Source: an uncultured Bacteroidota bacterium (GTDB lineage Bacteria; Bacteroidota; Bacteroidia; Bacteroidales; 4484-276). Taken from it: 64,000 bases of DNA. The notes under the pieces were generated by a model, which searched no databases, had not been told where the DNA came from, and worked only from the letters and a program-made list of their open reading frames with translations. How positions within the stretch are numbered: the first letter of the stretch is position 1; each line of letters starts with the position of its first letter. Made by a program: the position numbers and the translations under genes. Positions 3,567 to 39,876 of this stretch are shown in pieces. Location of the stretch: contig CAJATL010000374.1 of assembly GCA_903944895.1 (NCBI GenBank), forward strand, positions 1 to 64,000. Direction: 5' to 3'.

Positions 3567-3588
3567 TTAAATACACCCCCCTTCCAAC

Positions 3589-4278: not shown

Positions 4279-4410
4279 AATGGTATCTATTTTAAAATGA
4301 AGAAACAAATTTCAAAAATGTTTTGCCAAAAAACAAATTTTAACCCATAAATTTATTCTTTCAAACCTACACACCCCTTAAAGCCTGATCTGGTTTTCAC
4401 TTTCAACCAC

Positions 4411-4712: not shown

Positions 4713-4715
4713 GTC

Positions 4716-5118: not shown

Positions 5119-5236
5119 ACAAAACAAAAAACCTCTTTTAATCACAAATCAACCTAAAATCACAAAATCATAACCCTTTTCCATCACCACAAAACAAAAT
5201 GCACCGATTCTTGTTCCTTAGTCAAAAAATCAAAAT

Positions 5237-6403: not shown

Positions 6404-6533
6404 CCGAAAGATTTACTTTAATCAAAAACCATAAAACCTACCAGGTTTGAAAAACCTGTGAGGTTTTGTTTCACATCAAAAAAACCAGTGTTATTTTTCT
6501 TAAAAACCTTTTAGCCGGACGAAATAAAGTATG
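6404..6533. other. Intergenic with AAACCT/AGGTTT hairpin motif
   Basis: It contains AAACCTACCAGGTTT followed by AAACCTGTGAGGTTTT (about 6435-6468), a short palindromic pair of a kind repeated elsewhere in this window (39911-39926). It may act as a transcription end for the phosphoesterase. Confidence 0.4.
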
Positions 6534-6541
6534 TAACTTTG
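6534..6541 (+). promoter_or_regulatory. -7 promoter element of korAB
   Basis: TAACTTTG matches the Bacteroidota TAnnTTTG consensus 23 bp upstream of the ATG at 6565. It argues against translation starting further upstream at 6466. Confidence 0.6.
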
Positions 6542-6564
6542 TCCACTTCAAAAAAAGTCGAAAA

Positions 6565-8406: not shown

Positions 8407-8408
8407 CT

Positions 8409-9449: not shown

Positions 9450-9469
9450 AGCAAACTTTTTGATATTAA

Positions 9470-9513
9470 AAAAACCGCAAACTGCTTTAAGCTTTTGCGG
9501 TTTTCTTTTTTTT
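9470..9513 (+). terminator. Rho-independent terminator of korAB
   Basis: The stem AAAACCGCAAA / TTTTGCGGTTTT with an 11-base loop is followed by a run of T. It lies 20 bp after the korB stop and could also serve the convergent gene ending at 9526. Confidence 0.85.
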
Positions 9514-9525
9514 TGTGACAACTGT

Positions 9526-10224: not shown

Positions 10225-10254
10225 GATTTCCTGAATGTAATTAAGAATTAAAAG

Positions 10255-10262
10255 CAAAAATA
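10255..10262 (-). promoter_or_regulatory. -7 promoter element
   Basis: TATTTTTG on the minus strand, 30 bp upstream of the beta-barrel gene's start, matches TAnnTTTG. Confidence 0.5.
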
Positions 10263-10360
10263 TTGATTAAATACTGCAACCTGCAAATTTTCTGGTAAAT
10301 AAAAAAGCATGAAACTGTCTGTGTCAATTTCATGCTTTTCAAGTCTTAACTTATGATTGA

Positions 10361-11512
10361 TTATTTTCCACCGCCCTGATCGTGGCAATACCATTCGTCA
10401 ACCATCCATTGGAATTTTTTGGTAGGAACCTGAATGTTTCCCATCAGCTGACCAGTATAATCATAAACGCTGTAATCAATTAACTGGCAACGGGCATAAA
10501 GTTGTTGTGCCCATTGGAAGTGTGGTCCTACACATCTTGTATCTTTTACTTTCAGATTAATTGAATAACCTAAAGAAATTAATTCATTAATTAATGAAGA
10601 AGGAGCTACAGTAAAAATGTAAGTTCCACATGCGCCTGCACTACAAACTTCTGATTCGCTAACAAATGACCATGGTGCCCATGAAGTACCATTTTTCACC
10701 AGTCTGTAACCTGTAAAAGTGTACCAGGCTGAAAAGTGTGGCATTTCAAATGATGCTACATTTCTCTCAGCATTTAAAGTTCCCTCAATTGATTCCCATG
10801 AATTTGTCTGAGCATCGAATGAGCCAAAAAATATTTTTCCGCCATCAAGTACGCTTTGTACATTGATCGGGATATTAATGGTTGGTTTCAAATTTTGTGG
10901 GAAAGTAAGATCTGGGGAGAAATCATACCCATTAATCAAAACTCTTTCGCCAAGAACTTTCAGGTCACCATTTTTATAAGGCGGTTGAATAAATGAGACA
11001 ACAACATTTTGATCATTTGATATTGCACCATAAGGAAATTGGATGGTTGTATTCTGTGCAAGATCACTTGCAACAGTTATTACAGTTCCCTGAGGAGTAA
11101 CAAGAGATGCATTACCTTTTTTGTTAAGGTAAAAATCTTGCTGTGTAATTACTGCAGAAATATTCTCTTCAACAACTTTCTCAACTTCAACAATTTCATT
11201 TTCGGCAAGATAACCATCTTTAGAGGCAGTTACAATATAGTTGCCTTCCATTGTTTGATCAATGTTAAGGGTTCCGTTTTCATTTGTAAAATCCTTTGTG
11301 GTTCCATCAGGAAAAATTACTTTAACACTGTACCCTTGAAGAATACTTCCGTTATCACTGTCATAAACCGTAAGCTTTAACTGACTTGTGACATACGGGG
11401 TTGGCTCTGGCATTTCCGAAGGCCCAACATTCTTACACTGGTTAAATCCAAAAACCAAAACACCAGCAAGAATTAACAGGGCAAAAAACCGCGAATAGTT
11501 TTTGTTTTTCAT
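10361..11512 (-). CDS. Lipoprotein with carboxypeptidase-regulatory-like domain
   Basis: A 383-aa protein starting at the ATG at 11512 (MKNKNYSRFFALLILAG), chosen because it begins the signal peptide. A lipid-attachment Cys is plausible at C26 (FGFNQCKN). Residues about 42-115 form a carboxypeptidase regulatory-like Ig fold (LKLTVYDSDNG..GTLNIDQTMEGNYIVTASKDGY). The central part (VTVASDLAQNTTIQFPYGAIS to PHFSAWYTF) resembles the ZU5/PKD-like beta domains of phylum-specific surface proteins. The tail has several Cys, likely disulfide bonded. It lies 46 bp downstream of the YjbH-like gene on the same strand, so the two are probably co-transcribed. Likely a surface or periplasmic lipoprotein; role unknown. 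Confidence 0.65.
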   Translation of the reverse strand: MKNKNYSRFFALLILAGVLVFGFNQCKNVGPSEMPEPTPYVTSQLKLTVYDSDNGSILQGYSVKVIFPDGTTKDFTNENGTLNIDQTMEGNYIVTASKDGYLAENEIVEVEKVVEENISAVITQQDFYLNKKGNASLVTPQGTVITVASDLAQNTTIQFPYGAISNDQNVVVSFIQPPYKNGDLKVLGERVLINGYDFSPDLTFPQNLKPTINIPINVQSVLDGGKIFFGSFDAQTNSWESIEGTLNAERNVASFEMPHFSAWYTFTGYRLVKNGTSWAPWSFVSESEVCSAGACGTYIFTVAPSSLINELISLGYSINLKVKDTRCVGPHFQWAQQLYARCQLIDYSVYDYTGQLMGNIQVPTKKFQWMVDEWYCHDQGGGK

Positions 11513-11558
11513 ATTTACTCCTTGTTTAATTAATTGTCTAAAATTTCTGTGCTCAAAA

Positions 11559-12839
11559 TTAATAATATTTTTTAATCTCAAATAAAATATTTCTTCTTAA
11601 AAAGTCAGGATTATATTCTGACATTAACATAAATAGCTCATTTTCTGTATTGTACATAGTGCCTGAAGTTGGGTAACCTTTTGCCCGGTATTCATAAGAA
11701 AATTTCTCAGAAGGCCTTACCCTAAAATATTTCGGCTTTGTGTATTTTCGTGGAGGAATTGGGATTGCAAAATTAAAGCCCCCATTTAACTCTGATTCGG
11801 TAGCAAGAACAAAAAAACCAATGGTAACTTCTCTGAACTGTCTCAATAAATCACATCTTACACCTAATTCGTTGTATAAAAAATTTCCCGCCTGAACTCT
11901 ACCTGTCAAATCGTAAGGTTCATATCGATAATCAGCAGATAATAGTGCAGTCAGATAATTTTCATCGACAAGATAATCAGTTGCTACGCCAGTGTAGGAA
12001 TAATCAGTGGTGTAGCCAACATTTGCTCCTATCGATAACCGGCCATTGGAGAAGTATTTTTTCAACTCAAAATTTCCGCCTGCCCGATTTTTATCAAAAC
12101 ATCCAACAGTAACATCAAAAAAAACATCATCTTTCAATCGTACAAATTGGTTAAGTGCAATAATTCCTGGCCTTACCAAATCCCCTTCTTCGTCCAAATC
12201 GTTGTAAAGAGGGACAATAACCTGAGCCTTGAAAGATAAACCTTTACTGAGCGACGTATTGTATTCCGGAATCAGGTTTATGCTCGATTCGACAGGATGG
12301 GTAAACTTTCCGAATTGTGCTCTGAATTGCGGAATAATAACAATATCAGACTTGTAGTTAGATGAATTAAGCGGTTCGGCAGATTTTATTTCTCCCCACA
12401 CTGATTCAAACTCCAAAGTTATATAAATGCTATCAGAAAACAAGATGTCATCACTTTCTGGTTTTACAAAATTTTGATAATCTTTTAAAACCAAATTTAC
12501 CATTACAATCGGAACCTTTTGATGCAAGAGAATCAGATAAATTTCAGCATTTTCTTCTAAGCAACCTGAATTGGAGATGGTTTTTAAAACTTCTGCCAAT
12601 CCTCTGGCCTGCGACCTGTATCTTCTGTTTTCAAAAGCAACAATTAATTTTGATTCATCAACGACTGCTCTTACATTTTCAAATCCACCATCCGAAATAA
12701 GCCTGGAAATCGAATCACTCGAGTTAGTCTCTTGTGCAAAAGTATGATATTGAATACCAGACACTAATAACAAAAAATGACAAAGAACGATAATTCTACG
12801 CTTCAAAAAGTTACTCCTCCCGGAAAAAATCTTAACCAA
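11559..12839 (-). CDS. YjbH-like outer-membrane polysaccharide-associated protein
   Basis: A 426-aa protein. A hydrophobic leader ends near YHTFAQ, although the only start I see is a TTG (12837-12839); stop codons directly precede it and no in-frame ATG is available. Beyond residue 150 the sequence follows the YjbH pattern: a porin-like barrel with QFGKFTHPVESSINLIPEYNT, KGLSFKAQVIVPLYNDLD, RPGIIALNQ, FLYNELGVRCDLLRQF and EVTIGFFVLAT. YjbH proteins accompany exopolysaccharide production and sit in the outer membrane. The -7 box at 12894-12901 gives a leader of about 50 nt. Confidence 0.65.
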   Translation of the reverse strand: MVKIFSGRSNFLKRRIIVLCHFLLLVSGIQYHTFAQETNSSDSISRLISDGGFENVRAVVDESKLIVAFENRRYRSQARGLAEVLKTISNSGCLEENAEIYLILLHQKVPIVMVNLVLKDYQNFVKPESDDILFSDSIYITLEFESVWGEIKSAEPLNSSNYKSDIVIIPQFRAQFGKFTHPVESSINLIPEYNTSLSKGLSFKAQVIVPLYNDLDEEGDLVRPGIIALNQFVRLKDDVFFDVTVGCFDKNRAGGNFELKKYFSNGRLSIGANVGYTTDYSYTGVATDYLVDENYLTALLSADYRYEPYDLTGRVQAGNFLYNELGVRCDLLRQFREVTIGFFVLATESELNGGFNFAIPIPPRKYTKPKYFRVRPSEKFSYEYRAKGYPTSGTMYNTENELFMLMSEYNPDFLRRNILFEIKKYY

Positions 12840-24033: not shown

Positions 24034-24894
24034 CTAATTAACCGGTGAATATTTTTCCGGAATTTTAAAGGGAAAATTTACCGGTCCATTCAACTGTATT
24101 TTGGAGTAGTCAACTTTAACCTTGACCGGGACATCGGCTTCTACTTCGTAAACTATCTTAAAAGGAAACAATTGCCCTTCTACATTTTCGAATTCAGCAT
24201 ATGATGCGGTAAGTTTTTTACTGTTTCGCGTAAGTTCCTTTAGCTTAATCTGGTTAATTTTAAAAGACTGCGGATCGAGCCAGATTGACTGAAAAAAAAC
24301 CCTTTCGGCATCGCTCAGATTTCGCACATGCTTTTTCAGCTTCTGCCGTCCGGTGGTAGTGAGTTTATATTGCTTATTATCAATGGATGCTTTAAAAACA
24401 GCGCTATCGTAATATTCGAAATCATTCCCTAAAATTATCGATTGCAGAACGCCAAAATCGACGTTGGTCTTGAGGAAATTATTTACGAAATCGTAATCAC
24501 CTACAAAGTACTTTTTATTGATGCGGTCGAGAAATTTAACGGAGTCAAGGGTGATGAGCATTCTGGCCATTTCGATGCCCAGATCCTGGGTAAAGATAAC
24601 CCAGATGGCGCTGTCTTTCACGATATTTACCTGCCCCTTAAACTCAAAAGGTTTTCGTTTAACGAGGTATTCGATGTTGAATTTTGCCGAAAATGTATTG
24701 AACTTAAACTGGTTCTCCTGCAATTTTCCAAACAGATATCCTTCGCCTTCGTCTTTGATGGGCCCTTTAATAAGGTTTCGGTTACTCTGGCATGAAATAA
24801 AACCTGAAACCATCAACACCATCAGCAAAAGCTGTAAATAATTTTTTGGTGCCCTGAAAATATTGAGGTATGATGTTTTGATTTTGAACCCCAT
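24034..24894 (-). CDS. DUF4292 lipoprotein
   Basis: A 286-aa lipoprotein with a lipobox at VSGFISC after a hydrophobic leader. The body matches the Bacteroidota DUF4292 pattern: FNTFSAKFNIEY, GQVNIVKDSAIWVIFT, GIEMARMLITLDSVKFLDRINKKYFVGDY and a LolA/LolB-like half barrel ending KIPEKYSP. By fold it may carry lipoproteins or lipids through the periplasm, which is inference. Its ATG shares one base with the stop of the upstream TPR gene (TAATG), so translation is coupled. Confidence 0.85.
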   Translation of the reverse strand: MGFKIKTSYLNIFRAPKNYLQLLLMVLMVSGFISCQSNRNLIKGPIKDEGEGYLFGKLQENQFKFNTFSAKFNIEYLVKRKPFEFKGQVNIVKDSAIWVIFTQDLGIEMARMLITLDSVKFLDRINKKYFVGDYDFVNNFLKTNVDFGVLQSIILGNDFEYYDSAVFKASIDNKQYKLTTTGRQKLKKHVRNLSDAERVFFQSIWLDPQSFKINQIKLKELTRNSKKLTASYAEFENVEGQLFPFKIVYEVEADVPVKVKVDYSKIQLNGPVNFPFKIPEKYSPVN

Positions 24895-26636
24895 TATTCG
24901 TAAAGTTTTTTATCTCTGATTTTTTTATCCAAAAATTCGGAAGCTTCTCCTCCGACCTGCTTAGCTTTCTGCCAATAATCGAAAGCCTCATTTTTTCTGT
25001 TCAACCGATAAAGTACGTCTCCATAATGTTCAAGCTCAACGGCACTGTCGGCTTCTTCGTTATCGATGGCTTTTTTAATCCACTTTTCGGCTTCTTCATA
25101 TTCGCCAAGTTTGTACAACACCCAGCCAAAAGTATCCTGAAATGAAGGATTTTCAGGCGAAAGCTCCGTTGCTTTTCGGGCCATCTCCCTTGCTTTATCA
25201 AGCTTTTCGTTGCGAAGCGACAAATAATAACTGTAATTATTCAGCACATAGGCGTCGTCAGGCTTTATGCGGAGCGCTTTATCGTAAGCATCATCAGATT
25301 TTTTATGATCTTTAAGCTGATTGTAAACATCGCCCAGTGAGCTGTAAAACTGGGCCAACAATAAATCGTTGTCAACAACCACTAAAACACCGCTTTCGAA
25401 CGATTTAAGAGCCAGTTCATAGTTTTTTAACTGCATATTGGCGAAACCATTAAACAGGAAAGGCAGCGGTTGCATTGGAAAAAGTTGTATTGCGGTCTGG
25501 CTGGTTTGGTAGAGTTGATCGAATTTTTTCATTTCATTTTCGATAAACATCATCTGCTCCCAGATTGCGTAATTGCTGCTGTCGTATTTGAGTGCTTTTG
25601 AAAACGTGCTGTGTGCTTCTTCAAACTGCTCATTGCGATAAAGCAGATCGCCATAAATCGACAATGCTTTTGGGTCGTCGGGATGCGTTTTTACCAGAAT
25701 CTCCGACAATTCATAAGCCTGCTCCTTTTTTTCGTTATAAAACTGATCGAGGCTATAATAGGAAAGTAAGATTTGAATTTTTGTCTGAAGGTCGAGCGCC
25801 GGATTTGCGAAGCCTTTTTTAAGTTCTTCGAAAGCCTTTTGTTCGTCGCCATTTTTGCGGTAAAAATCTGACAATGAGATCCGGATGTATGGATTTTCAG
25901 GGTCGACCAGCGCAATTTTCTCATAAATTTTCAACGCTTCCTTATCATTTCCTTCCGACATATAGCTTTCGGCAAGAATCTGCAAATATCTGCTGTTGTC
26001 AGGATTTGCTTTGACAAGTTTCTGAATTTCTTCGATAGCTTTGGATGGCTTATTAATGCTTTGGTAGAGCTTTTGTTTTTGAATGGAAATTTCTTCACTA
26101 ACCCCAATCAATGATTCGATTTTATCATAAACCACAATGGCTTCTTTATAATCTTCGATGATAATGTAAGAGAGGGCCAGGTCGAAATAATAATCCACTT
26201 TATCGGGGTAAAGTTCAGTCAGCTTTTTGAATACATCCACAACTTTATCGTATTGCCGCGAAAACCGGTAAAGATCAGCCAGCAACAATTGATACCATAC
26301 ATTTTCCGGCGCTATCCTGATGGCATTTTCCATGAGAAGAACAGCATCTTCAATGCGAACCTGGCTCATGTAAATGCGGGCAAGCTCATACATCGAGGCA
26401 TCGTGGTTGGGGTCGATTTCCAGAACTCTTTTAAAGAGAACCTCGGCCTTATCGGTGTTTCCAAGAATTCTTTCCTTGTTGGCATCAAAAAATAAGGACT
26501 TCCTGTTTAAGAGGTCGTTTTCGGTGAGTGCTGCCTTTGCTTTTTGTTTCTTCTGCGCATAGAGTGATTCGGGCGAAGTAAAACTTCCAAAAAGAACCGC
26601 CAAAAGCACCATGAAAATAGTATGCCTTTTTATCAT
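24894..26636 (-). CDS. Exported tetratricopeptide-repeat protein
   Basis: A 580-aa protein from the ATG at 26636 (MIKRHTIFMVLLAVLFGSF), chosen because it begins a clean signal peptide ending near SLYAQ; an ATG at 26648 and a longer form are possible. It contains about a dozen TPR helices pairs (AEVLFKRVLEIDPNHDASMYELARIYM, ALKIYEKIALVDPENPYIRISLSDFYRK, AYDKALRIKPDDAYVLNNYSYYLS). It lacks membrane helices and so is likely periplasmic. It overlaps the DUF4292 gene by one base and lies 166 bp after dut. The conserved pairing with DUF4292 and EnvC genes suggests work on the cell envelope. Confidence 0.85.
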   Translation of the reverse strand: MIKRHTIFMVLLAVLFGSFTSPESLYAQKKQKAKAALTENDLLNRKSLFFDANKERILGNTDKAEVLFKRVLEIDPNHDASMYELARIYMSQVRIEDAVLLMENAIRIAPENVWYQLLLADLYRFSRQYDKVVDVFKKLTELYPDKVDYYFDLALSYIIIEDYKEAIVVYDKIESLIGVSEEISIQKQKLYQSINKPSKAIEEIQKLVKANPDNSRYLQILAESYMSEGNDKEALKIYEKIALVDPENPYIRISLSDFYRKNGDEQKAFEELKKGFANPALDLQTKIQILLSYYSLDQFYNEKKEQAYELSEILVKTHPDDPKALSIYGDLLYRNEQFEEAHSTFSKALKYDSSNYAIWEQMMFIENEMKKFDQLYQTSQTAIQLFPMQPLPFLFNGFANMQLKNYELALKSFESGVLVVVDNDLLLAQFYSSLGDVYNQLKDHKKSDDAYDKALRIKPDDAYVLNNYSYYLSLRNEKLDKAREMARKATELSPENPSFQDTFGWVLYKLGEYEEAEKWIKKAIDNEEADSAVELEHYGDVLYRLNRKNEAFDYWQKAKQVGGEASEFLDKKIRDKKLYE

Positions 26637-26802
26637 ATTTAAAATCATATCCAGATTTATCAGGTTTACAAAACACCTGCCGGGGTTGATAATTGTATGC
26701 TTTTTCTTTTTTAACATAAGTTAAGATTGAATTTCAATGGCTTATGCCAGGAGTTTTATCCAATGAATTTAACAATTTTGAGGGAATTAAGTTGATGTAA
26801 AG

Positions 26803-30120: not shown

Positions 30121-33100
30121 TCAATTTTTTTCAATTTTCCTGGTTGCCTCATTAACCATCCCCCACATTTGTGTAAGTTGTTTGTTGACTATTCCTTTAT
30201 CAATATAATATTTCAAATAGTCTTTAGCTGTATTAAGTAATTCCAAGTTATGAGGAGGCTGAAGAGTAAGGCACATGTCCCAAAGACTGTTGACATAATC
30301 GATGTTGAAAAACATCTTTTCATCGAGTTTCTGTATAACTATTGTTTCCTCCTTAACTTTCAACGATTGTTCTAATATCTCCTTTGCTTTTTTAGAATCT
30401 CCTATACTTTCATACAAGCCTGCTAACGAATGGAGGCATCGTGAAAATCTACTCCTGAAACTCACACTAAGAGGTAATGTGGCAACAAGGGATTCCAAAA
30501 TCTTCGATGCCTTTTCGTAGGATTCGATTGCTTTTTTTTTACCCTGCATTCCACGTCGATAAATATTCCCAAGTCGATCTAAATTCATTGAAAACAAATC
30601 TTTAAAATGATTATTCTCGGGCTCTAATTCAATAAGGTATTCAGAAATTGTAGAATATTTTTCAAATATCTCTAATGCTTTAATTATATCACCCCTAATT
30701 GAATATTCGTTTCCTAATCTATCATAAAGATCTAACAAATCATAGTTAAAATCAATTCTATCTGGCTCCTTTACAACAAGGGTTTCCTTTGCCTTTCTAA
30801 CATTCTCGAAAAACTCAAGGGCTTTTTTGGCTTCGCCCATCGCCTTATAAATGTTACCCACCGAATTAAAGATCCCCGCCAAGTCATGCTGGTAATCAGT
30901 CCGATCGGGTTCCATAGCTACAAGGGATTCCCGGATCTTCAATGATTGTTCAAAAAACTCAAGGGCTTTTCTATGATCTCCCATTTCTCGATAAATGTTA
31001 CCCACCTTATGAAAGCTCACCGACAAGTCTTGCCGGAAATCCGTCAGATCTGGTTGCGTGGATACAAGGGACTCCCGGATCTTCAATGATTGTTCAAAAA
31101 ACTCAAGCGCTTTTTTGGCATCGCCCATATCTGAATAAATGTTACCCACCGAATTAAAGCTCACTGACAATTCGCGCCGGAAATCCGTCCTATCGGGTTC
31201 CATGGCTACAACGAATTCCATTGTTTTCAATGATTGTTCAAAAAACTCAAGGGCTTTTATACGATCACCCATTTCTCGATAAATAATACCCTTTAGAACA
31301 GAGGCTGCTGACAAGTCATGTCTGTATCCTATACTATTAGGTTCATCTAATAATAATAACTCAATAATATCCATAGCCTTTATTATAAAGTAAAGTGCAT
31401 TTGTAGAACTGCCCATCTTAACATGAATGTCGCTTAAGGTACCAAATATTATTGATAAATCGTGTTTAAGATCAGCTCTATTCGGATTCAAGTCTATAAG
31501 CGCCACCATAACATTCATAGCTTTCTCAAGAAACTCCTTAGCCTTTTTGTTGTTACCAACTTCTTGATGAAATTTAGCAATGGTAAAGTAGCTCCACGAT
31601 AATTCATGATTTGCAGCCCTACTTTTAGGGTCAACCCTCACTATCCCAATATTTATTATTAACACAGCTTCATAAAGTTTCAAAGCCCAACGGGAATGGC
31701 CTTTTTTTATATAATTTTTGGCTCTTTCATAAATAAAACTTGTGTATTGAGTTTTTTCAATTAGGCTTTCTTCATTTGAAATTTTTTTAACGATTTTTAT
31801 AAGAAGTGATTCATTGCTGAATGAATGATTTGCTAAAACCCAATCGAACAAATTCTCAACCCCAATAATGAACATTTGTTTAATTTCATTTTTTGCATTA
31901 AACACCCATAGCAAATTTTCTTCTAATTCTCTTTTCATCCCAGCCAGATACAAATGAATAAATACATATCTGATACAATAATCAGCACTTACATCAATTT
32001 CATTGGGATTTACTATGATTTCACTAAAATATTTTTGGTTGAGATCTCCCATTATTTTATATGAATCGTTGCGACTAATTGCATAAATATTTGAGTATTC
32101 TCGGTTTGTAATCCATTCAACCAATGATTTATGGAAGGGACTGATTTTGTTGTAATTAATTGGAAAAAATGAACCTGCTTTATTAAGAAAGTCGTACAAT
32201 TCTGTTTCAGTGATAGACAATAACCGGCATAAATACTCAATTGAGATTGGTTCGAGTGCGGAAATAATAATCCTCAAAACAGGGTCTATTTCTTTGCGAT
32301 AATCACAATTGCCAAATTTCCGCTGAAACGACCTTAGGTACAAGCCACCCATTCCGAACGGGAACTTATCGGGATGTTCAATATCTATCAATTTATTTCC
32401 GGAATCTTCGATTTCTTCGCATATTTCTTTTGCATACAGAAAATTTCCCTCGCTTTTAGCAATAATGCTGTTGATGGCCTTTTCGCGGATACCTTGCGAA
32501 TGGCACTGTAATTTGCCGTTGAGATAACTCTTTATGTCGTTGATGTTTTCTTTTGATGAGGCATCCAGCAGGTATGGGTTGAATTTTTGCAGCAATTCGA
32601 TTACACCAGGTTCGGGGCGGGTTGTCACAATCATCCTTAGCCAGTCGGGCGTTTTACGAAAAACGCTCGAAATCAAATCGGCAATTTCGTTGATATTGCT
32701 TAACGATTTGGCTTCATCAAGGGCATCAATCAGGATAAATATTTTGCCTTCCGGTTTGCTGATCCTGTATAAAGGTTGGGCTATGATTTGGTTGAATAAA
32801 GTAATCGCATCTGTTTCAAAATCAATGTTGATCAGCGCAAGCCTGTCCTGATACTCTTTTAATTGTGTACTGATCTGGTATGCAATTGATTTAACAAGGT
32901 CAACCGGATTGTTCATTTTTGTATTTTGGGAGTTGCAAAGGTGATAACCCGCAATCTCTTTCTTTTTATCTATCAGGTAAGCCGATATTGCGGTCTTGCC
33001 AACACCAGGCCCTCCTTGTAAAACAAACACTTTGGATCCATTTTCATCAGCAAGCCAGATGTCAATAATGTCGATCAGCCATTTACGCCCTGTAAAATCC

Positions 33101-33741
33101 CGAAGGTTGTAATAAATATCAGAACCAAAATCAATTGGTTTGAGCGTCTTCAACAGGTTGGATTGTACGCCTTCATAATCCAGTTTATCATGCTCGAGCG
33201 CTTCAATAAGTCTCTGGAAAGTTTTATCGTAACTTGCTGATGAATAATTATTGACACAATTTTGCGCATCGAGCCACTGTATCCTGCAGATTGATAACGG
33301 CAACTCGCAGTAAACCAGCATAACTGGTACAATACCCACATTTTTGGTCAAAATCCTTGAAATTTCGTTCAGGCAGTAGCCATCAGGTTTTCTTGCGGAA
33401 TGAGGTGTAATGATGTAAACAAACCTACCGTTGGCAGGATTATCTGAAACCATTTTCAGCCCTTCTTCAATGTAGTGCTCCCAATCTCTCCCTTCTTTCA
33501 GTCTTCCTTTATCAAACCAAACATTATGACCTCTTGTTTTCAGGTCAGCTTTTATTTTCTCTGCAAATTCGGTGTATTGGTCACGGCCATAGCTGACAAA
33601 AATATTCATCTGCTTAATTGGCTTTTCTACAATGACTTCTTGTTCACAATCTTCACAAAAATAACCATTACGTTTTTTGCTAAAAATTACATTTTCACTT
33701 TTGCAGGCTAGATTGGTACAGATAATTTTGTTTTCTGACAT
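30121..33741 (-). CDS. Zinc ribbon - TIR - STAND NTPase - TPR protein (putative anti-phage sensor)
   Basis: A 1206-aa protein. In order: a zinc ribbon (C8, C13, C29, C32); a TIR domain at about 45-165 starting MNIFVSYGRD, with a candidate catalytic Glu at E126 in GYCLNEISRI; a STAND/NACHT-like NTPase from about 205 with P-loop GGPGVGKT (243-250), Walker B ILIDALDEA (D339, D342, E343) and TTRPEPG; a winged-helix-like region about 470-560; and about ten TPRs from 690 to the end, five or so in a 48-residue unit (VGNIYREMGDHRKALEFFEQ). TIR domains in bacterial immunity cleave NAD+ or make cyclic ADP-ribose signals; STAND proteins with TPRs bind invader proteins and oligomerise. It lies 28 bp behind the SLOG-membrane gene on the same strand. 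Function in defence is inference. Confidence 0.85.
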   Translation of the reverse strand: MSENKIICTNLACKSENVIFSKKRNGYFCEDCEQEVIVEKPIKQMNIFVSYGRDQYTEFAEKIKADLKTRGHNVWFDKGRLKEGRDWEHYIEEGLKMVSDNPANGRFVYIITPHSARKPDGYCLNEISRILTKNVGIVPVMLVYCELPLSICRIQWLDAQNCVNNYSSASYDKTFQRLIEALEHDKLDYEGVQSNLLKTLKPIDFGSDIYYNLRDFTGRKWLIDIIDIWLADENGSKVFVLQGGPGVGKTAISAYLIDKKKEIAGYHLCNSQNTKMNNPVDLVKSIAYQISTQLKEYQDRLALINIDFETDAITLFNQIIAQPLYRISKPEGKIFILIDALDEAKSLSNINEIADLISSVFRKTPDWLRMIVTTRPEPGVIELLQKFNPYLLDASSKENINDIKSYLNGKLQCHSQGIREKAINSIIAKSEGNFLYAKEICEEIEDSGNKLIDIEHPDKFPFGMGGLYLRSFQRKFGNCDYRKEIDPVLRIIISALEPISIEYLCRLLSITETELYDFLNKAGSFFPINYNKISPFHKSLVEWITNREYSNIYAISRNDSYKIMGDLNQKYFSEIIVNPNEIDVSADYCIRYVFIHLYLAGMKRELEENLLWVFNAKNEIKQMFIIGVENLFDWVLANHSFSNESLLIKIVKKISNEESLIEKTQYTSFIYERAKNYIKKGHSRWALKLYEAVLIINIGIVRVDPKSRAANHELSWSYFTIAKFHQEVGNNKKAKEFLEKAMNVMVALIDLNPNRADLKHDLSIIFGTLSDIHVKMGSSTNALYFIIKAMDIIELLLLDEPNSIGYRHDLSAASVLKGIIYREMGDRIKALEFFEQSLKTMEFVVAMEPDRTDFRRELSVSFNSVGNIYSDMGDAKKALEFFEQSLKIRESLVSTQPDLTDFRQDLSVSFHKVGNIYREMGDHRKALEFFEQSLKIRESLVAMEPDRTDYQHDLAGIFNSVGNIYKAMGEAKKALEFFENVRKAKETLVVKEPDRIDFNYDLLDLYDRLGNEYSIRGDIIKALEIFEKYSTISEYLIELEPENNHFKDLFSMNLDRLGNIYRRGMQGKKKAIESYEKASKILESLVATLPLSVSFRSRFSRCLHSLAGLYESIGDSKKAKEILEQSLKVKEETIVIQKLDEKMFFNIDYVNSLWDMCLTLQPPHNLELLNTAKDYLKYYIDKGIVNKQLTQMWGMVNEATRKIEKN
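30790..31320 (-). repeat. 144-bp tandem DNA repeats inside the TPR region
   Basis: Segments such as CGGATCTTCAATGATTGTTC and ATAAATGTTACCCACC recur at 144-bp spacing with very few changes, far closer than TPRs usually are. This suggests recent duplication or gene conversion in the ligand-sensing part of the protein. Confidence 0.75.
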
Positions 33742-33769
33742 GGCTTAATATTTATGAAATTTAATTAAT

Positions 33770-35536
33770 TTAACCTTTCGGATTTTCCATTGGTCTCGAC
33801 CGATGTAAAAGCAACCAATCACCATTTTCAAGCAAGGCTTCCTGCGCAAGTTCTGTGATAATATCATTTGCTTCGTCAAAGTCATTATTATTGATTGCGT
33901 GATCTAATTTATCACTTGCCAACTGGAATAACTGTGCCATTTGTTGATAATTTTTAGCCTGCTCGGCAAATACCATTTTATCAGAATACCCATGTAGTGC
34001 TGCAGCAAGAACCAGTAAAACACTTGTTGAACAGGATAGAACTGAATGTATGATTTCTTCGAGAGACTTGAGGTTTTCAGGGAATTTTTCGGCATTAAAG
34101 CTTACCAGAAAGAGCAGACAAGCAGCAACAATTGCACTTATAAAAGAACAGGAAGCCATCAATTCCCACTTTTTTGCTGAGAGATTATGCTTAATGGATG
34201 TTTTTCTGAAATATTTCAATTGGTCATCAACCCAATTAGTCTTAAGAAAGATGAAAGCCTTCATCTGGTTAACCGTATTCACTTCACGGAAGGTTTTATC
34301 ATTTTTCCAGTCATTTAAAAGTGATGTGCGGAGGGCATAAAGCACCCACTCCAGTTCACCCCTATGCCTTTTAAGATAATGGTCGCTAACGCTGTTTTGT
34401 TTACCGCAAGCATTTAAAAAGTACTGTACCCTGTATGCCTCCGACAACGCTCTATAATCCTCATGCTTGTTTTCGAACTTTTCCCTATTGGCTATAAAAA
34501 ACCATAATGCACCTATTCCCATCGTTATCGGATACAGCATTAATATCAGAGGCTTATGCAAAAACTCAGTATTTATGTGCAGAAAAAGGAATGCTAATAC
34601 CACCAGCGACAATAATACTTTTAAAGCAAGAAACCTTCTTTTTTGAAAATATGTAGCCAGTTCACTAGTTATTCCGTGCTTTTCTGCAATATTACACAAG
34701 GTTAGGTTATTGACGCAATCAGCATGATTCGGCAATAAATAACTTGTGCTTTTTTCAATTTTTTCTTTTAAAGCTGAACCTAATTTGATAAAGTCTTTAT
34801 TAAAAGAATCAATTCGGCGAAGTATTTCTTTATCGTTTTCCTCATCCATGGAAGGGGTGTTTTCGGGTTGCGACGGATAATACATGATTTTGGTAAAAGG
34901 ATGATCCGGTACTAAGTTGCTTTTACGTGGAGTAATAATATGATAGATAGGGCCGGTTTGAAGATGCCGGAGTCTTTTCGTTTTATCTTCAAATTTTCCC
35001 GGAATACCTGTTTTTTTAAGTTTGACCACATCAGCAGTACCACCTTTCTTTCCATTGTCTGTCCCATCCCACAAAGCAATCAAAACATGACATTGTCTGG
35101 CTATAAATAAGCCGCTTTGATAATATTGCTCATTCCGTTTTTCATGGTTACAAACATTTTCAATAGAAGTTCCATCCTGTAATGGGAGTTCAATAATAAG
35201 CGAAGCCTTTGCAAGTAAACTATCGAATTCCAGAGCTGAATTTGGGGAAACAAAATCCTTTTTGTATTCCTCAACAGGCATTGGCAAAACTGCTATGAAA
35301 TCAATTTTGCTTTCAACGGCAGCCCAGGCTGCAATCTGATCAGCTCCTTCAGCAAGTGGTGTTAGTAAAACAACAGGTGTATGTGGGCATTCAATTTGTT
35401 TTTGCTCAACAAATTCCTTAATCAGGTGTTTTAAGAGTTCCTTGTCTTCCTCACGGATATCCCTGTGGCCTGCAACACCAAGATAAAGAGGAATCAGCAA
35501 AGTTTTATTTGGTACTGAATTTTTATCCATTTCCAT
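33770..35536 (-). CDS. SLOG/LOG-like Rossmannoid protein with four membrane helices (putative effector)
   Basis: A 588-aa protein. Residues about 15-230 form a LOG/DprA-like nucleotide-binding fold: LGVAGHRDI (19-27), TPLAEGADQIAAWAAV (59-74), VLPMPVEEYKKDF, CHVLIALWDGTDNGKKGGTADVV (149-171). Two helices follow at about 304-322 and 328-348, then a conserved-looking ENKHEDYRALSEAYRVQYF segment (355-373), and a second helix pair at about 457-475 and 489-512, as in SLATT-type membrane effectors. SLOG domains bind nucleotide messengers (ThsA of Thoeris binds TIR-made cyclic ADP-ribose). Immediately upstream of the TIR-STAND gene. ATG at 35536, with a second Met two codons on. Confidence 0.75.
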   Translation of the reverse strand: MEMDKNSVPNKTLLIPLYLGVAGHRDIREEDKELLKHLIKEFVEQKQIECPHTPVVLLTPLAEGADQIAAWAAVESKIDFIAVLPMPVEEYKKDFVSPNSALEFDSLLAKASLIIELPLQDGTSIENVCNHEKRNEQYYQSGLFIARQCHVLIALWDGTDNGKKGGTADVVKLKKTGIPGKFEDKTKRLRHLQTGPIYHIITPRKSNLVPDHPFTKIMYYPSQPENTPSMDEENDKEILRRIDSFNKDFIKLGSALKEKIEKSTSYLLPNHADCVNNLTLCNIAEKHGITSELATYFQKRRFLALKVLLSLVVLAFLFLHINTEFLHKPLILMLYPITMGIGALWFFIANREKFENKHEDYRALSEAYRVQYFLNACGKQNSVSDHYLKRHRGELEWVLYALRTSLLNDWKNDKTFREVNTVNQMKAFIFLKTNWVDDQLKYFRKTSIKHNLSAKKWELMASCSFISAIVAACLLFLVSFNAEKFPENLKSLEEIIHSVLSCSTSVLLVLAAALHGYSDKMVFAEQAKNYQQMAQLFQLASDKLDHAINNNDFDEANDIITELAQEALLENGDWLLLHRSRPMENPKG

Positions 35537-35549: not shown

Positions 35550-36905
35550 TTACCCGACTATCAGTTTTACACTTTGATCAGGTTTTTCTCCAATTTTTAG
35601 GAGATAAATTCCTTTTGGTAAATTACCCAGGTCAAGACGATAATTGCACGAATTTACCTTGCCTGAACGAACAACAACGCCAATCTGATTAATCAGACAA
35701 TAATCTGAACCAATTAAATCTTCACAAATTTTAATTGTCGTAAACCCGGGTGCCGGATTTGGATGGATTTCCATGCTGTTTTTTACCGGATTTTCTGAAA
35801 TTCCAATGGTGCTGCTGTTTATAAAAACATAATCACCATCCTCGTTGCTAAAATATCCCGAATAAATATCAATTAAACCATCATTATTCAGGTCGCCGAT
35901 TGCCTGTCCGTGACAACTTGCACCAACTGTTGCCTGGAAACAAAGCGAGAAATTCAATCCGCCATCATTAACAAAAAGCTGAGGGTTTGAACTGTAAAAT
36001 CCCAAAAAAACATCCATATCGCCATCATCATCAACATCATAAAGATTTACAGCCTTGCAATAAGAACCCGTCTGTATAGTGGCGCCTGGCGTAAAACCGG
36101 CATGGCTATCATTTAACCAGATTTCGGCAGTATTGCCTGAATTGCCAACCCAGGCATCCAAATCCCCGTCGCCATCAAGATCGGCTAAAGCGATGACTCC
36201 TCCTTGTGTGCCAAAATTTGTACCCAATTGCGTAAAAGTTCCATTTCCATCATTCAGAAAAACGGTATTTCCATAAGCGCTGCTTTCGCTTACAAAAGCG
36301 TCGGGATGGCCGTCTCCGTCCAAATCGCCCAAATCGGCATCATGGCCTCTGGCACCAGGCAGCGATTGAGAAAGCGCATATGTTCCAGTGCCATTATTTT
36401 TTAAAACAACCCCATTTCCACCACCGCTGTTGGGAAGGAAAATGTCAATGTCGTTGTCGCCGTCAATATCGCCAACTGCGGCGTTGTACGTCGAGATATT
36501 GGATGAAAAATTGCTTACGGTAAAACTTCCAGAGCCATTATTTTTGAGAATGGTTGTAGCTGTTGAAGAATAAAATGGAATTGCGATGATATCAAAATCA
36601 CCATCACCGTCAACATCGGCGGCATGAACACCATAAAAACTATCCTCGGTTGCATATTGTGCTTTTAACGAAAATGTGCCGGTGCCATCATTCAGGTAAA
36701 TATCAATACCAAAATAGGCCGAAATGGCAGCGCAATCGAGGTCGCCATCATTGTCGAAATCGGCCAGGGCCACACCAAAAGTAGCTGCCGAAGTTGGTGG
36801 TTCGATTTGTTGAAAGCTGGTAAAAGTGCATTCCTGTGCAAATGTTCCACCGGATGAAAGCAGCGAAAGGACGACAAGCAAAAATGTGTAAATGATTTTT
36901 TCCAT
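35550..36905 (-). CDS. Secreted FG-GAP/VCBS beta-propeller protein with T9SS sorting domain
   Basis: A 451-aa protein: signal peptide (to about GGTFAQ), then seven or so FG-GAP/VCBS repeats, each with a calcium-binding loop such as DFDNDGDLD, DVDGDGDFD, DIDGDNDID, DLDGDGHPD and DVDDDGDMD, then a C-terminal type-A T9SS sorting domain from about 375 (IHPNPAPGF.. GNLPKGIYLLKIGEK). It is a cell-surface or released protein; ligand unknown. It ends 13 bp before the SLOG gene on the same strand, so the defence-like pair may be read from its promoter, although the two functions look unrelated. Confidence 0.85.
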   Translation of the reverse strand: MEKIIYTFLLVVLSLLSSGGTFAQECTFTSFQQIEPPTSAATFGVALADFDNDGDLDCAAISAYFGIDIYLNDGTGTFSLKAQYATEDSFYGVHAADVDGDGDFDIIAIPFYSSTATTILKNNGSGSFTVSNFSSNISTYNAAVGDIDGDNDIDIFLPNSGGGNGVVLKNNGTGTYALSQSLPGARGHDADLGDLDGDGHPDAFVSESSAYGNTVFLNDGNGTFTQLGTNFGTQGGVIALADLDGDGDLDAWVGNSGNTAEIWLNDSHAGFTPGATIQTGSYCKAVNLYDVDDDGDMDVFLGFYSSNPQLFVNDGGLNFSLCFQATVGASCHGQAIGDLNNDGLIDIYSGYFSNEDGDYVFINSSTIGISENPVKNSMEIHPNPAPGFTTIKICEDLIGSDYCLINQIGVVVRSGKVNSCNYRLDLGNLPKGIYLLKIGEKPDQSVKLIVG

Positions 36906-37096: not shown

Positions 37097-37104
37097 TACT
37101 TTTG
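37097..37104 (+). promoter_or_regulatory. -7 promoter element of the BNR-repeat gene
   Basis: TACTTTTG lies 36 bp upstream of the ATG at 37141. A TTG at 37102 sits inside this box and so cannot be the start. Confidence 0.6.
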
Positions 37105-37140
37105 AAACCTGAAATTTCTCTAACTAAAATAAACTTTACG

Positions 37141-39876
37141 ATGAATTTTTTTACCATGTCTCCCCGGCGAAAATACAGTTGGATGGCTGTTTCTTTGGTG
37201 ATGATAATCGCAGGAACAGCGCTGTTTTACAGCAACAGCCATTTTGATAAACGAAAAAAATACGAAAAATTTCTGAGGGAAAAAATGGCTGCCATTCCTG
37301 TAATTCCTGATCAGAGCAAAAAAAATGAAAAAGCAGCCGACCAGCCTGAAATGGGCGCCATTCAGGATTATTTCATGACTTTAGACCCGGCGCTGGGCTA
37401 TGCGCCACGTGAACGGCTGCAAAAGGCCTACAAAGAAACCAGGGAAAACACGAAAAATAATCTCAAATCAACTGCTTCGCTCGACTGGAGCGGAACTTCC
37501 GCCGAAATGGGTGGCCGAACCCGTGCCATCATGTGGGACCCGAATGACGCAACCGGTAAAAAAGTCTGGGCCGGCGGCGTTACCGGTGGCCTGTGGTACC
37601 GCAACGACATCACCAACAACCAGTCGCTCTGGCAGCCAGTCGGCGATTTCTGGAGTTCTCTCAACATCAGTTGCATCACTTACGACCCCAACAACCCTTC
37701 AACCTTTTATATCGGAACCGGCGAAGCACAAACCGCTTTGTACATTTACCGCGAATCGTCGGGAACTGGCGAAGGCATCTGGAAATCGACCGATAGCGGT
37801 CAAAGCTGGAATCTGCTCGGGCCGACCCTCGATTTTGAATATGTAACCGACATCAAAGTAAGAAACGAAAACGGCAGCAGCGTGATTTATGCCGGCGTGG
37901 CCTCCGGTTTTTATCATGGAACCAATCATCAGAGCGAACCGTCGGACGGGCTTTTCCGTTCCGAAGATGGAGGTGCTACCTGGGAACAGGTTCTGCCGGA
38001 TATTCCCGGATATGGCGCTCCTTATGCTGTGGCTGATATCGAAATTGCCGCCGATGGCCGGATGTACGTGGGAACCATGCAAAACGTCGAAATCGAAGGC
38101 GGTGCTACAATTTTAATTTCTGACGAAGGAACCGAGGGAACCTGGACCGTGTACGACGATTATGTTGCCATCATCCAGAGCAATTCTTCCTATTATATCC
38201 CGGCAAGGGTAATGCTTTCGTGCGCACCATCCGATGCAAACATAGTTTATGCCACTATTGCCGCCGGTTACACCGATGGTTTTAACTATTACCGCGGCCG
38301 CTACGTCATCAAAACCACCAACAAAGGCGCAACCTGGACCGAAATTAACAAACCGGCCTCCGACTGGTCAACGCTGGCGTGGCATGCGCTCATTATCCGG
38401 GTTGACCCTAATAATCCAAACCATATTTTTACTGGCGGCCTCGATATGTGGAAAACCACCAACGGAGGCACAAGCTGGAACAAAATTTCGGATTGGTCGC
38501 TGATGTATTATGGCGGTGGCGACGAATACCTCCACGCCGACCAACATGCCCTCGAATTCAAACCCGGAAGTTCGACTGAGTTTATCTGCAGCAACGACGG
38601 CGGCGTTTTTTATACTTCATCAGCTACAAGCCCGGCGCCTGTTTTCCAGGAAAAAAATCAGGGCTATAACACCCTGCAGTTTTATACCTGCGATCTTTAT
38701 CCGCAGGCCGGCGCCCCGGTTTACGTTGGTGGTCTGCAGGACAACGGGACTTTGCTTTATCAGAATGCACCACTTTCGATTTTTGATATGGTTGATGGCG
38801 GCGATGGTGCTTACTGCTTTTTTGATGACGACGCCACCAATTTGCTGATTACTTCAGTTTATTACAACCGCTATTCGGTATTTTTAAATGGAAGTGGCTA
38901 TGATTACCTCGATTATGAAAGCGGCATTTTTATCAATCCCGCCGATTACGATTCAAAAAACAATACGTTGTATGCCAACGCTGTCGATTTTTTCGGAAAC
39001 ACCCCGAATACAATCCTGAGGGTTAGTGGCATCGGAGCAAGTTCCAACGGCGATTTCATCGCGCTGCAAACCGGAACCGATGTTTATTATTCGCATATAA
39101 AGGTTTCGCCAGCTTCGCCCCTGCTTTCGACGCATCTTTTTATTGGAACGCAGGCCGGGCAGGTGTTTAAGGTTATCAACGCCCAATCCTCCCCCATCGT
39201 GGGCGAAATTACAGGCAGTGATTTCCCGGCAGCCTATGTTTCATGTGTGGCTGTTGGCCAGACAGAGGATGATCTTATGGTAACTTTCTCGAATTATGGC
39301 GTGCAGTCCGTCTGGCGCACTGTTGACGGAGGCGAATCATGGACCGATGTGGAAGGCAACCTGCCGGATATTCCTGTAAGATGGGCAATTTATCACCCAA
39401 ATAACACCGGGCAGGCTTTGCTGGCCACCGAACTGGGCGTTTGGTCAACTACAGAACTCAACAGCGACGAGGTTAACTGGGTTCAGGATATCGACGGCCT
39501 GGCCAACGTGAGGGTTGACATGTTGATATTGCGGCCAACGGATAATATGGTTTTGGCTGCTACTCACGGAAGAGGCTTTTTCACTGCCCAATACCCGCTC
39601 GACCCGTATGTTTCTATTACCGAAAAGGAAATATCGAAACTTTCGGTTTTCCCAAATCCTTCCAGTGGATTAGTCAATATTCAGATTCCTGCTTCGCAAT
39701 CAAACATGGCCAGAATCCAGGTTTTTGATGCTTCCGGTAGAGAAGTTTATGCTGCAAATGCTGATGCCGGCATTCAAAATCATCCAATCAATCTCAGCGG
39801 CCAACCCAAAGGAAATTATATTATTAAGATGATCCTGGATGGAAAATCATATTCAGAAAAGGTTGTGGTGGAGTAG
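37141..39876 (+). CDS. Secreted BNR/sortilin-like beta-propeller protein with T9SS sorting domain
   Basis: A 911-aa protein from the ATG at 37141. An N-terminal hydrophobic segment (WMAVSLVMIIAGTALFY) is a signal or anchor. From about residue 115 come two seven-bladed-type propellers with Asp-box/BNR motifs (STDSGQSWNLLG, SEDGGATWEQV, TTNKGATWTEI, TTNGGTSWNKI, TVDGGESWTDV), the layout of VPS10/sortilin-type and xyloglucanase-like secreted proteins. The C-terminus (KLSVFPNPSSGLVNIQIP.. GQPKGNYIIKMILDG) is a T9SS type-A domain. No catalytic Asp pair was identified, so enzymatic activity is open. Divergent from the FG-GAP gene. Confidence 0.85.
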   Translation: MNFFTMSPRRKYSWMAVSLVMIIAGTALFYSNSHFDKRKKYEKFLREKMAAIPVIPDQSKKNEKAADQPEMGAIQDYFMTLDPALGYAPRERLQKAYKETRENTKNNLKSTASLDWSGTSAEMGGRTRAIMWDPNDATGKKVWAGGVTGGLWYRNDITNNQSLWQPVGDFWSSLNISCITYDPNNPSTFYIGTGEAQTALYIYRESSGTGEGIWKSTDSGQSWNLLGPTLDFEYVTDIKVRNENGSSVIYAGVASGFYHGTNHQSEPSDGLFRSEDGGATWEQVLPDIPGYGAPYAVADIEIAADGRMYVGTMQNVEIEGGATILISDEGTEGTWTVYDDYVAIIQSNSSYYIPARVMLSCAPSDANIVYATIAAGYTDGFNYYRGRYVIKTTNKGATWTEINKPASDWSTLAWHALIIRVDPNNPNHIFTGGLDMWKTTNGGTSWNKISDWSLMYYGGGDEYLHADQHALEFKPGSSTEFICSNDGGVFYTSSATSPAPVFQEKNQGYNTLQFYTCDLYPQAGAPVYVGGLQDNGTLLYQNAPLSIFDMVDGGDGAYCFFDDDATNLLITSVYYNRYSVFLNGSGYDYLDYESGIFINPADYDSKNNTLYANAVDFFGNTPNTILRVSGIGASSNGDFIALQTGTDVYYSHIKVSPASPLLSTHLFIGTQAGQVFKVINAQSSPIVGEITGSDFPAAYVSCVAVGQTEDDLMVTFSNYGVQSVWRTVDGGESWTDVEGNLPDIPVRWAIYHPNNTGQALLATELGVWSTTELNSDEVNWVQDIDGLANVRVDMLILRPTDNMVLAATHGRGFFTAQYPLDPYVSITEKEISKLSVFPNPSSGLVNIQIPASQSNMARIQVFDASGREVYAANADAGIQNHPINLSGQPKGNYIIKMILDGKSYSEKVVVE

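Follow-up and report, generated by a model that had tools for sequence, protein, structure and literature searches.

A SLOG four-helix membrane protein encoded beside a TIR-STAND-TPR protein in an uncultured Bacteroidota bacterium: a probable cell-suicide alarm whose pairing recurs in varied forms in different phyla

Introduction

In previously described systems, TIR domains cleave nicotinamide adenine dinucleotide (NAD+) and produce signals that the SLOG domain of ThsA binds; ligand binding makes the transmembrane (TM)-macro form of ThsA oligomerize, and this form is believed to disturb the membrane (PMC11204291, PMC12948488, PMC12847820). SLATT proteins have been predicted to be membrane effectors regulated by ADP-ribose derivatives (PMC9503650), pairs of TIR and SLATT genes have been described in phages (PMC9503650, PMC7159879), and a type VI Thoeris system is mentioned in PMC13232231. 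Here, we analyze a stretch of 64,000 nucleotides (hereafter, the window) at the start of contig CAJATL010000374.1 (C374) from an uncultured Bacteroidota bacterium, whose assembly comprises 7.17 Mb in 424 contigs; in this window, the gene for a protein with a SLOG domain and four predicted membrane helices (P0002; hereafter, the SLOG-4TM family) lies beside the gene for a TIR-STAND-TPR protein (P0001). Associations of SLATT with SLOG and with TIR were reportedly predicted by Aravind, Burroughs and colleagues in 2015.

The window pair shares some features with each of several described systems. As in Thoeris type I (the TIR protein ThsB and the SIR2-SLOG protein ThsA), a TIR enzyme is encoded near a SLOG protein whose fold is detectable against ThsA; unlike in type I, there is no SIR2 domain, the putative effector part consists of four membrane helices, the TIR is fused to STAND-TPR, and the SLOG domain is nearer in fold to YpsA and DprA than to ThsA. 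The Pfam matches of P0002 to E 0.1 include no SIR2 family and no macro domain, and the part following SLOG is helical with the four membrane helices. Type II, with its TM-macro ThsA (PMC11204291), likewise combines a TIR enzyme with a membrane effector carrying a nucleotide-binding domain, whereas in the window SLOG takes the place of macro, four helices rather than two follow the sensor and the TIR is fused to STAND-TPR. For type III, a single model was compared (NCBIfam ThcB4), against which P0001 scored 15.6 bits with a cut-off of 220. Type IV is reported to join TIR to a caspase-like protease (PMC12847820); plasmid TIR-caspase operons, which may be of this type, hold a stand-alone SLOG similar to that of P0002, but the window has no caspase. 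DUF4062 has been reported as a TIR-like NADase family with the antiphage system Swarozyc, which is described as depleting NAD+ (PMC13174449); DUF4062-STAND-TPR genes occur near three SLOG-4TM relatives (L083, L094 and L116), whereas P0001 has a canonical TIR. Compared with the published SLOG-SLATT and TIR-SLATT predictions, the window SLOG is fused to two probable SLATT-like modules, its partner is TIR-STAND-TPR, and the linkage is measured here across phyla.

Results

Architecture of the SLOG-4TM protein P0002

The two open reading frames (ORFs) described in a first-pass annotation, which a model made from the sequence, were found as claimed, in length, spacing and strand (Table 1).

Table 1. 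Positions in the window of the two genes and of the features of their products
Feature	Position	Strand	Basis
SLOG-4TM protein P0002, 588 aa	33770..35536	-	ORF call; AlphaFold2 model
SLOG (YpsA/DprA-like) domain, residues 15-220	34877..35494	-	Fold search
Membrane helices 1-2 (probable first SLATT-like module), residues 303-348	34493..34630	-	Hydropathy; L031 SLATT_1 match
Membrane helices 3-4 (probable second SLATT-like module), residues 460-516	33989..34159	-	Hydropathy; L175 SLATT_1 match
Conserved C-terminal motif, residues 570-588, family consensus ENGDWxLxHRERPLE	33773..33829	-	Alignments
Intergenic gap between the P0002 and P0001 genes, 28 bp, genes on same strand	33742..33769		
TIR-STAND-TPR protein P0001, 1206 aa	30121..33741	-	ORF call; Pfam TIR_2, NPHP3_N, TPR
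Zinc-ribbon-like CX4C...CX2C, residues 8-32 (C8, C13, C29, C32)	33646..33720	-	String search, by eye
TIR domain, residues 45-167, catalytic-type Glu E126	33241..33609	-	Pfam; alignment; PDB profile matches
NACHT-like STAND NTPase (NPHP3_N), residues 227-375, Walker A K249	32617..33063	-	Pfam; motif search; alignment
TPR array, approximately residues 807-1129	30355..31323	-	Best stretches of TPR families

A string search placed the motifs GHRD, AEGAD and KKGGTA of P0002 at residues 23-26, 62-66 and 163-168. The LOG/DprA-like fold proposed for this part was weak by sequence: the Pfam match to DprA had an E of 0.003 and 17.1 bits against a cut-off of 29.6, and neither P0002 nor its profile matched any PDB sequence. 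It gained support from an AlphaFold2 model of good quality (predicted local distance difference test (pLDDT) 89.4, predicted template modelling score (pTM) 0.88; 44 relatives in the alignment). The top PDB matches of the model in Foldseek were DprA and ShosA (E 1.6e-3 to 1.7e-3), and in VIA-align the first 220 residues matched YpsA best (Z 17.8 over 163 residues, 2.8 A), with further matches to ShosA (Z 13.9), DprA (Z 13.4), ThsA (Z 9.0 over 118 residues, 3.4 A), the Moco carrier protein and LOG. The predicted N-terminal fold is that of the SLOG superfamily, Rossmann-like as in YpsA, DprA and LOG. In TRPM2 and TRPM4, too, a SLOG-type domain precedes the membrane part. Taken by itself, the SLOG region matched TRPM4 with Z 7.9 (4.1 A) and a TRPM2 chanzyme with Z 7.5 (4.4 A), values below 8 that can reflect a common arrangement; the whole-model match to TRPM2 (Z 8.8) had a root-mean-square deviation of 31 A and does not support channel homology for the membrane part. 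The catalytic motif of LOG is PGGxGTxxE. Since the Glu of this motif is missing from both GGTADVV of P0002 and the family consensus GGTAxVV, the SLOG domain is likelier to be a sensor than a glycosidase.

Hydropathy peaks at residues 303-321, 330-348, 460-478 and 495-516 correspond to four predicted membrane helices, in the two pairs that the first-pass annotation had read from the sequence. The membrane part probably consists of two tandem SLATT-like modules, because relatives match SLATT_1 in either pair: the distant relative L031 at residues 279-356, approximately the first helix pair (under the cut-off), and the plasmid relative L175 at residues 435-567, approximately the second (45.3 bits, above the cut-off of 41). 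In addition, a profile of the TM part of the family matched a DUF4231/SLATT protein at another locus, L080 (E 6e-4). In the C-terminal motif, E570 is invariant and W574, H578, R579 and R581 are conserved in at least 90% of 45 aligned rows. One family member, an 837-aa protein at L124 (9950-12463), has two consecutive SLOG domains ahead of the membrane helices, with a TIR gene adjoining on the opposite strand.

Architecture of the TIR-STAND-TPR protein P0001

P0001 was found to contain the parts that had been read from its sequence, namely the TIR with E126, the P-loop NTPase with K249, the TPRs and, by eye, the zinc ribbon. Pfam matched residues 47-167 to TIR_2 (E 6e-16), residues 227-375 to NPHP3_N (E 1e-22) and the C-terminal part to TPR_12 (E 4e-34). 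E126, a catalytic-type Glu located by string search within a CLNE motif, lies in a column that is invariant in 10/10 aligned TIRs, and the TIR profile matched PDB sequences of TIR NADases including AbTIR, SARM1, SPARTA TIR-APAZ and Cat1. In the NTPase, G243, G246, G248, K249, L341, D342 and E343 are invariant in five aligned rows, the window protein included, and a DALDE motif was located by string search; P0001 thereby shows the general features of a STAND NTPase, a P-loop NTPase with invariant Walker residues and C-terminal TPRs. The zinc-ribbon-like stretch had no profile match, and similar cysteines were seen by eye in the P0001 relatives L040 and L085. The structure model of residues 1-600 was poor (pLDDT 53, pTM 0.33), with likeness to TIR structures confined to the TIR part (best Roq1, Z 9.6); therefore, we do not argue the STAND fold from structure. 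A strong DNA tandem repeat covers part of the TPR array (30847-31291, period 144, 3.1 copies, 80% matches), which suggests recent unit duplication.

In PADLOC-DB 2023, P0002 had a weak match to ShosA only, and none of five SLOG-4TM relatives or SLOG proteins was matched (L083, L112, L121, L175, L176). No Avs model was among the PADLOC-DB matches of P0001 to E 0.1, and its relative at L085 reached only 23.2 bits to Avs1b.

Linkage of SLOG-4TM genes to TIR genes

A genome-contig search with a family profile (A1) found 190 SLOG-4TM relatives, and the analyses used the best 80 of the 190 loci. With our own TIR profile, a TIR ORF was detected within 1 kb of the SLOG-4TM gene in 36/80 loci and within 3 kb in 42/80. 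TIR ORFs per Mb numbered 262 in the first kilobase, 44 in the second, 20 between 2 and 4 kb, 22 between 4 and 6 kb, 5 between 6 and 8 kb and 0 between 8 and 10 kb. This profile was seeded with at most nine TIR domains, including those of L029, L034, L085, L108, L112, L127 and L133, and rebuilt once with its own matches; the loci that supplied seeds match by construction. A doubtful match at L098 (229 aa, opposite strand, E 2e-5) is counted among the 36 and labelled 'none' in the tree described below. Because vertical inheritance of a whole neighbourhood could mimic linkage, genes of at least 120 aa from the 36 loci were clustered: one TIR family was common to 31 loci, the next flanking family to 10 and other non-TIR families to at most 6. 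The TIR gene is retained at SLOG-4TM loci while the remaining flanking genes turn over, and the family is strongly but not always linked to TIR genes. A fixed lexA-recA-mutS neighbourhood in Lysobacterales was considered and rejected, being common only to L133 and L153, which are near copies.

In a tree of 86 rows, 48 have a TIR, 17 have none and 21 were not evaluable (no TIR and a flank shorter than 3 kb or cut off); the TIR label changes at least nine times. The tree leaves out L096, L102 and L130 (in-frame stops), L030 (broken frame), L034-L036 and L038. TIR linkage outside Lysobacterales is seen, among others, in the window, in Nitrospirota (L085), Verrucomicrobiota (L101) and Bacillota (L108 and L143), in other Pseudomonadota (L121 and L134) and in distant loci of the phylum to which the window belongs. 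The TIR is confirmed by Pfam in L085, in L108, in L112, L121, L127, L133 and L134 (all Pseudomonadota), and in L029 and L034; that of L101 is called by our own profile, and at least 25 Pfam families matched at this locus are WD40 and related propellers.

Loci L028-L038 are 11 more distant representatives of this SLOG clade within the phylum of the window, two of them in a single genome; a TIR ORF lies within 4 kb in eight (L029, L030, L031, L032, L034, L035, L037 and L038). L028 has DUF4062 and RyR proteins in place of TIR, L033 has an RyR protein on a short contig, and L036 has neither. A separate STAND gene is present at L029 and L034 (nSTAND1, Pfam) and at L030 (72% homologue of the L029 gene); TIR and STAND are thus separate genes in these three loci and fused in the window. 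At L030 (9184-10629), the SLOG-4TM frame is broken into pieces of 367 aa and 104 aa in different frames, with intact TIR-DUF4062 and STAND genes beside it. The compact cluster at L108 of Heliobacterium mobile (1911-12118) encodes a TIR with a C-terminal PDZ, the SLOG-4TM protein and a stand-alone RyR protein, with two further TIR ORFs upstream. In Gammaproteobacteria, small, poorly conserved genes whose products look beta-rich by eye are located between the TIR-TPR and SLOG-4TM genes (L112, 9629-10000; L133, 9147-9982; L118, 4292-4660); that of L112 had no Pfam match.

DUF4062, RyR and plasmid neighbourhoods

The closest relative of P0002, L083 (72% identical), has a DUF4062-NB-ARC-TPR gene 4.5 kb away, and DUF4062-NACHT/AAA-TPR genes lie 1.3 kb from the SLOG-4TM gene of L094 and 0.94 kb from that of L116; these neighbours have the P0001 chassis with TIR exchanged for DUF4062. 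RyR-domain genes lie near L086, L089, L108 and L143 (Pfam), and a cluster of RyR, TIR and SLOG-4TM genes is present on L172, a contig classed as viral, the RyR match there being just under the cut-off. Phage RyR-domain proteins have been reported to degrade or sequester cyclic ADP-ribose (cADPR) signals (PMC13232231). With our own profiles, RyR was detected in 5/80 loci and DUF4062 in 5/80 (one of them, L103, is really a TIR ORF), a minority in both cases. The RyR profile was seeded with proteins of L089 and L108 picked by eye and later confirmed by Pfam; the DUF4062 profile was seeded from L029, L083, L085 and L094, and L116 was its sole new find. The DUF4062 and RyR neighbours suggest ADP-ribose chemistry. 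Directly upstream of the Nitrospirota SLOG-4TM gene, L085 (7843-9699) encodes a 618-aa TrkA_N protein with a weak RyR match under the cut-off, and a Pfam-confirmed TrkA_N and RyR protein also flanks the SLOG gene of L035.

On plasmids, an annotated TIR gene was near the SLOG gene in six of seven loci examined, two of the six being near-identical; the seven comprise six of nine plasmid matches and H17. A Caballeronia plasmid has SLOG-DUF4231, then TIR, then WD40; TIR-caspase-SLOG or TIR-x-SLOG operons are present on plasmids of Bacillus, Rhizobium, Agrobacterium (two near-identical records) and Novosphingobium; and a Streptomyces plasmid SLOG locus has no annotated TIR gene. At L176, L177, L178 and L181 (Bacillus, Rhizobium and Agrobacterium plasmids), a stand-alone SLOG of approximately 150-160 aa is encoded as the third gene beside the TIR-caspase pair.

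Distribution of the family and its kinase fusion

The SLOG-4TM family is sparsely distributed. It was matched, in some cases through the SLOG part alone, in 5/197 related genomes and 16/395 genomes of the phylum, and the SLOG-4TM profile matched 2/295 genomes of the class, the window's own genome being included in each count. The nearest relatives of P0002 come from two metagenome-assembled genomes (MAGs), one of Bacteroidia (L083) and one of Bacteroidales (L084). No close relatives of P0002 were found in viral contigs, in phages or, with a single-sequence query, in genome contigs; profile A2 of the P0002 family matched two viral contigs, and family genes are rare in viral, phage and plasmid collections. 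The single-sequence search of viral contigs with P0001 found nothing, and its profile (A4) found one distant match there, to the NTPase part; the first 560 residues of P0001 had only partial matches in plasmids. L080 and L081 are P0001 relatives; a divergent DUF4231/SLATT gene (E 2e-19) lies 0.33 kb from L080 (genome G285), L081 has no SLATT match on its 10.6-kb contig, and the 3.2-kb contig of L040 is too short to judge. In 145 genomes of the class of G285, A4 found only the two relatives already known.

At L085, a 1430-aa homologue of the TIR-NTPase half of P0001 (43% identity), with WD40 replacing TPR, lies 2.7 kb from the SLOG-4TM gene (37%), with a DUF4062 gene and one further gene between them. 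In the tree, L085, L083, L084 and the window protein are grouped with a Shimodaira-Hasegawa-like approximate likelihood ratio test (SH-aLRT) value of 95, obtained with a quick method that leaves the placement of long branches unsure. In the Bacteroidales MAG (L084, 9992-12565; L023, 9065-11638), a SLOG-4TM module 46% identical to P0002 is joined via a coiled coil to a histidine kinase, the coiled coil and kinase replacing the C-terminal HRERP motif; this is apparently a receiver rewired to two-component signalling. The genome of this fusion is 94% complete and has no TIR_2 match. A comparison of TIR_2 presence in 12/16 family genomes with 62/148 phylum genomes was too unmatched and was not used as evidence. 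In the Ignavibacteriota genome of L094, ten TIR_2 matches lie side by side on one strand (G887 C5, 8454-25004).

Surroundings of the pair

The GC content of the gene pair is 0.345-0.379, compared with 0.382-0.479 in the flanking kilobases, which suggests that the pair was acquired as one unit. Por secretion tails give the proteins encoded in the window a Bacteroidota-like appearance. A promoter search at the pair yielded no prominent promoter (34 promoter-like sites, compared with 24.5 +- 5.2 in shuffled sequence). Only 13 bp upstream of the SLOG gene is the end of a same-strand gene for an FG-GAP repeat protein with a Por secretion tail (35550-36905, minus strand); this neighbour is probably unrelated, but its cotranscription with the SLOG gene is possible. 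Of the 'two-gene operon' in the first-pass annotation, the tight same-strand pair stands, and its operon status is only probable because of the lack of a prominent promoter and the nearby FG-GAP gene. The direct neighbours of the pair, scanned with Pfam only, are genes for a carbon-nitrogen hydrolase, the FG-GAP secreted protein and a polysaccharide flippase-like protein. Besides the pair, the window has 51 ORFs of 120 aa or more, of which PADLOC covered 10; the ORF at 37102-39876 fell outside both scans. A 607-aa protein consisting largely of TPRs (24894-26717, minus strand) matched the PDC-M71B candidate model (E 4e-16) and PrimPol and TPR models, and the other nine ORFs had no PADLOC match.

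Discussion

We give an even chance to the proposal that P0001 and P0002 are a Thoeris-like pair, in which sensor and NADase are fused in one protein and the other is a SLOG-gated membrane effector. On infection, the TPR array of P0001 would recognize a cue, its STAND NTPase would exchange nucleotide and oligomerize, and the clustered TIR domains would cleave NAD+ to produce an ADP-ribose-type signal. The SLOG domain of P0002 would then bind this signal, whereupon its four membrane helices, as two SLATT-like modules, may oligomerize or open, disturb the membrane and stop growth. For the TIR chemistry, the SLOG sensing and the role of SLATT as a membrane effector in this pair, we infer from the literature. 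The Thoeris-like TIR/SLOG logic put forward in the first-pass annotation is favoured by the linkage of SLOG-4TM genes to TIR genes or TIR-like DUF4062 genes across phyla; the pair probably forms a cell-suicide alarm, and its pairing recurs in varied forms in different bacterial phyla.

Several observations weigh against this proposal. The exact pair is rare: a TIR-NPHP3_N homologue of P0001 lies near a SLOG-4TM gene in 1/80 loci (L085), and blastp found a P0001 relative at 0/16 first-pass SLOG-4TM loci, so that what is conserved across genomes is the looser TIR linkage rather than the pair that had been expected. Of 65 evaluable tree rows, 17 have no TIR within 3 kb, and in the 26-row clade of the window protein 11 rows have none, 11 cannot be judged and 4 have one. 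As many as 28 of the 48 TIR-labelled rows are Lysobacterales, and the independent cases are therefore far fewer than 48. L083 has no TIR on its contig, although the upstream flank is as short as 325 bp and 11 TIR_2 matches were found in the genome. No TIR_2 match was found in 4/16 distinct genomes with the family (including G523, G883 and G892); thus, either the family is able to function in the absence of a TIR_2 partner, or DUF4062 or a TIR that escaped detection may supply its ligand. The L084 fusion appears to show that the SLOG-4TM module can feed a signalling output instead of killing. Regarding structure, Foldseek alone matched the P0002 model to nothing in PDB at E 1e-3 or below, the likeness of its SLOG domain to ThsA, which had been proposed for comparison, is present yet weaker than that to YpsA, ShosA and DprA, and the SLATT matches of P0002 itself are under the cut-offs (SLATT_1, 14.8 bits against 26.3 in Pfam; SLATT_4, 16.1 against 55). 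Finally, neither the 10 other window ORFs scanned with PADLOC nor the direct neighbours scanned with Pfam include a known defence gene or island.

A rather unlikely alternative is that the TIR is itself the executioner: P0001 alone would deplete NAD+, and the SLOG-4TM protein would tune or anchor it at the membrane, as a regulator or a fail-safe. TIR-STAND-repeat proteins are plausible as stand-alone effectors, the PDB matches of the TIR profile named above are direct NADases, 5/9 TIR neighbours checked have a predicted membrane helix of their own, and L081 shows a P0001 relative without a SLATT match on its contig; at L080, however, a SLATT gene adjoins the P0001 relative, and the repeated linkage of TIR to a nucleotide-sensing fold suits a signal more than bulk loss of NAD+. 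A second account, also unlikely, gives the SLOG-4TM family the general role of sensing, at the membrane, metabolites that derive from NAD or ADP-ribose under stress or damage. TIR systems of some lineages, and a histidine kinase in one other, would have recruited this sensor, and in the window it need not be an antiphage effector. That account would accommodate the many relatives without a TIR neighbour, the kinase fusion in a genome without TIR_2, the four family genomes of that kind and the scarcity of family genes in viral, phage and plasmid collections, but it fits less well with the 28-bp spacing to the TIR-STAND gene, with a TIR linkage that outlasts the loss of other flanking genes and with the lower GC of the pair, which suggests joint acquisition. 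Far less probable is a third account, in which the SLOG domain breaks down or modifies the signal enzymatically, so that the SLOG-4TM protein would act as a brake and not as an effector. SLOG families do include LOG-type nucleotide glycosidases (PMC9503650), and P0002 has LOG fold matches; nevertheless, GGTADVV lacks the LOG Glu, and a degrading enzyme has no obvious need for four conserved membrane helices.

Beyond the Thoeris-like proposal for the window, we tentatively consider a broader reading, which we regard as rather unlikely: the family may represent a widespread, unnamed class of TIR signalling, with a SLOG-gated four-helix membrane receiver analogous in layout to TRPM2, which senses ADP-ribose, interchangeable senders (TIR-STAND-TPR, TIR-STAND-WD40, TIR-TM-TPR and DUF4062-STAND-TPR) and, in one lineage, a receiver rewired to a histidine kinase and thereby to gene regulation. 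In literature titles and abstract openings, with a December 2025 survey preprint on TIR signalling outside this coverage, no pair of TIR-STAND and SLOG-TM is named. To this extent, the claim that no such system had been described stands; SLATT as a nucleotide-gated effector was, however, already a published prediction.

Known Thoeris effectors read TIR signals through SIR2-SLOG, TM-macro or caspase proteins, and a SLOG domain on a four-helix protein would add a further type of receiver. With TIR fused to STAND-TPR, a single NLR-like protein of a bacterium would both detect the trigger and make the signal, as plant TIR-NLRs do. Through its DUF4062 and RyR neighbours, a single receiver family is connected to three ADP-ribose players described in recent reports, which offers a testable hypothesis for the ligand.

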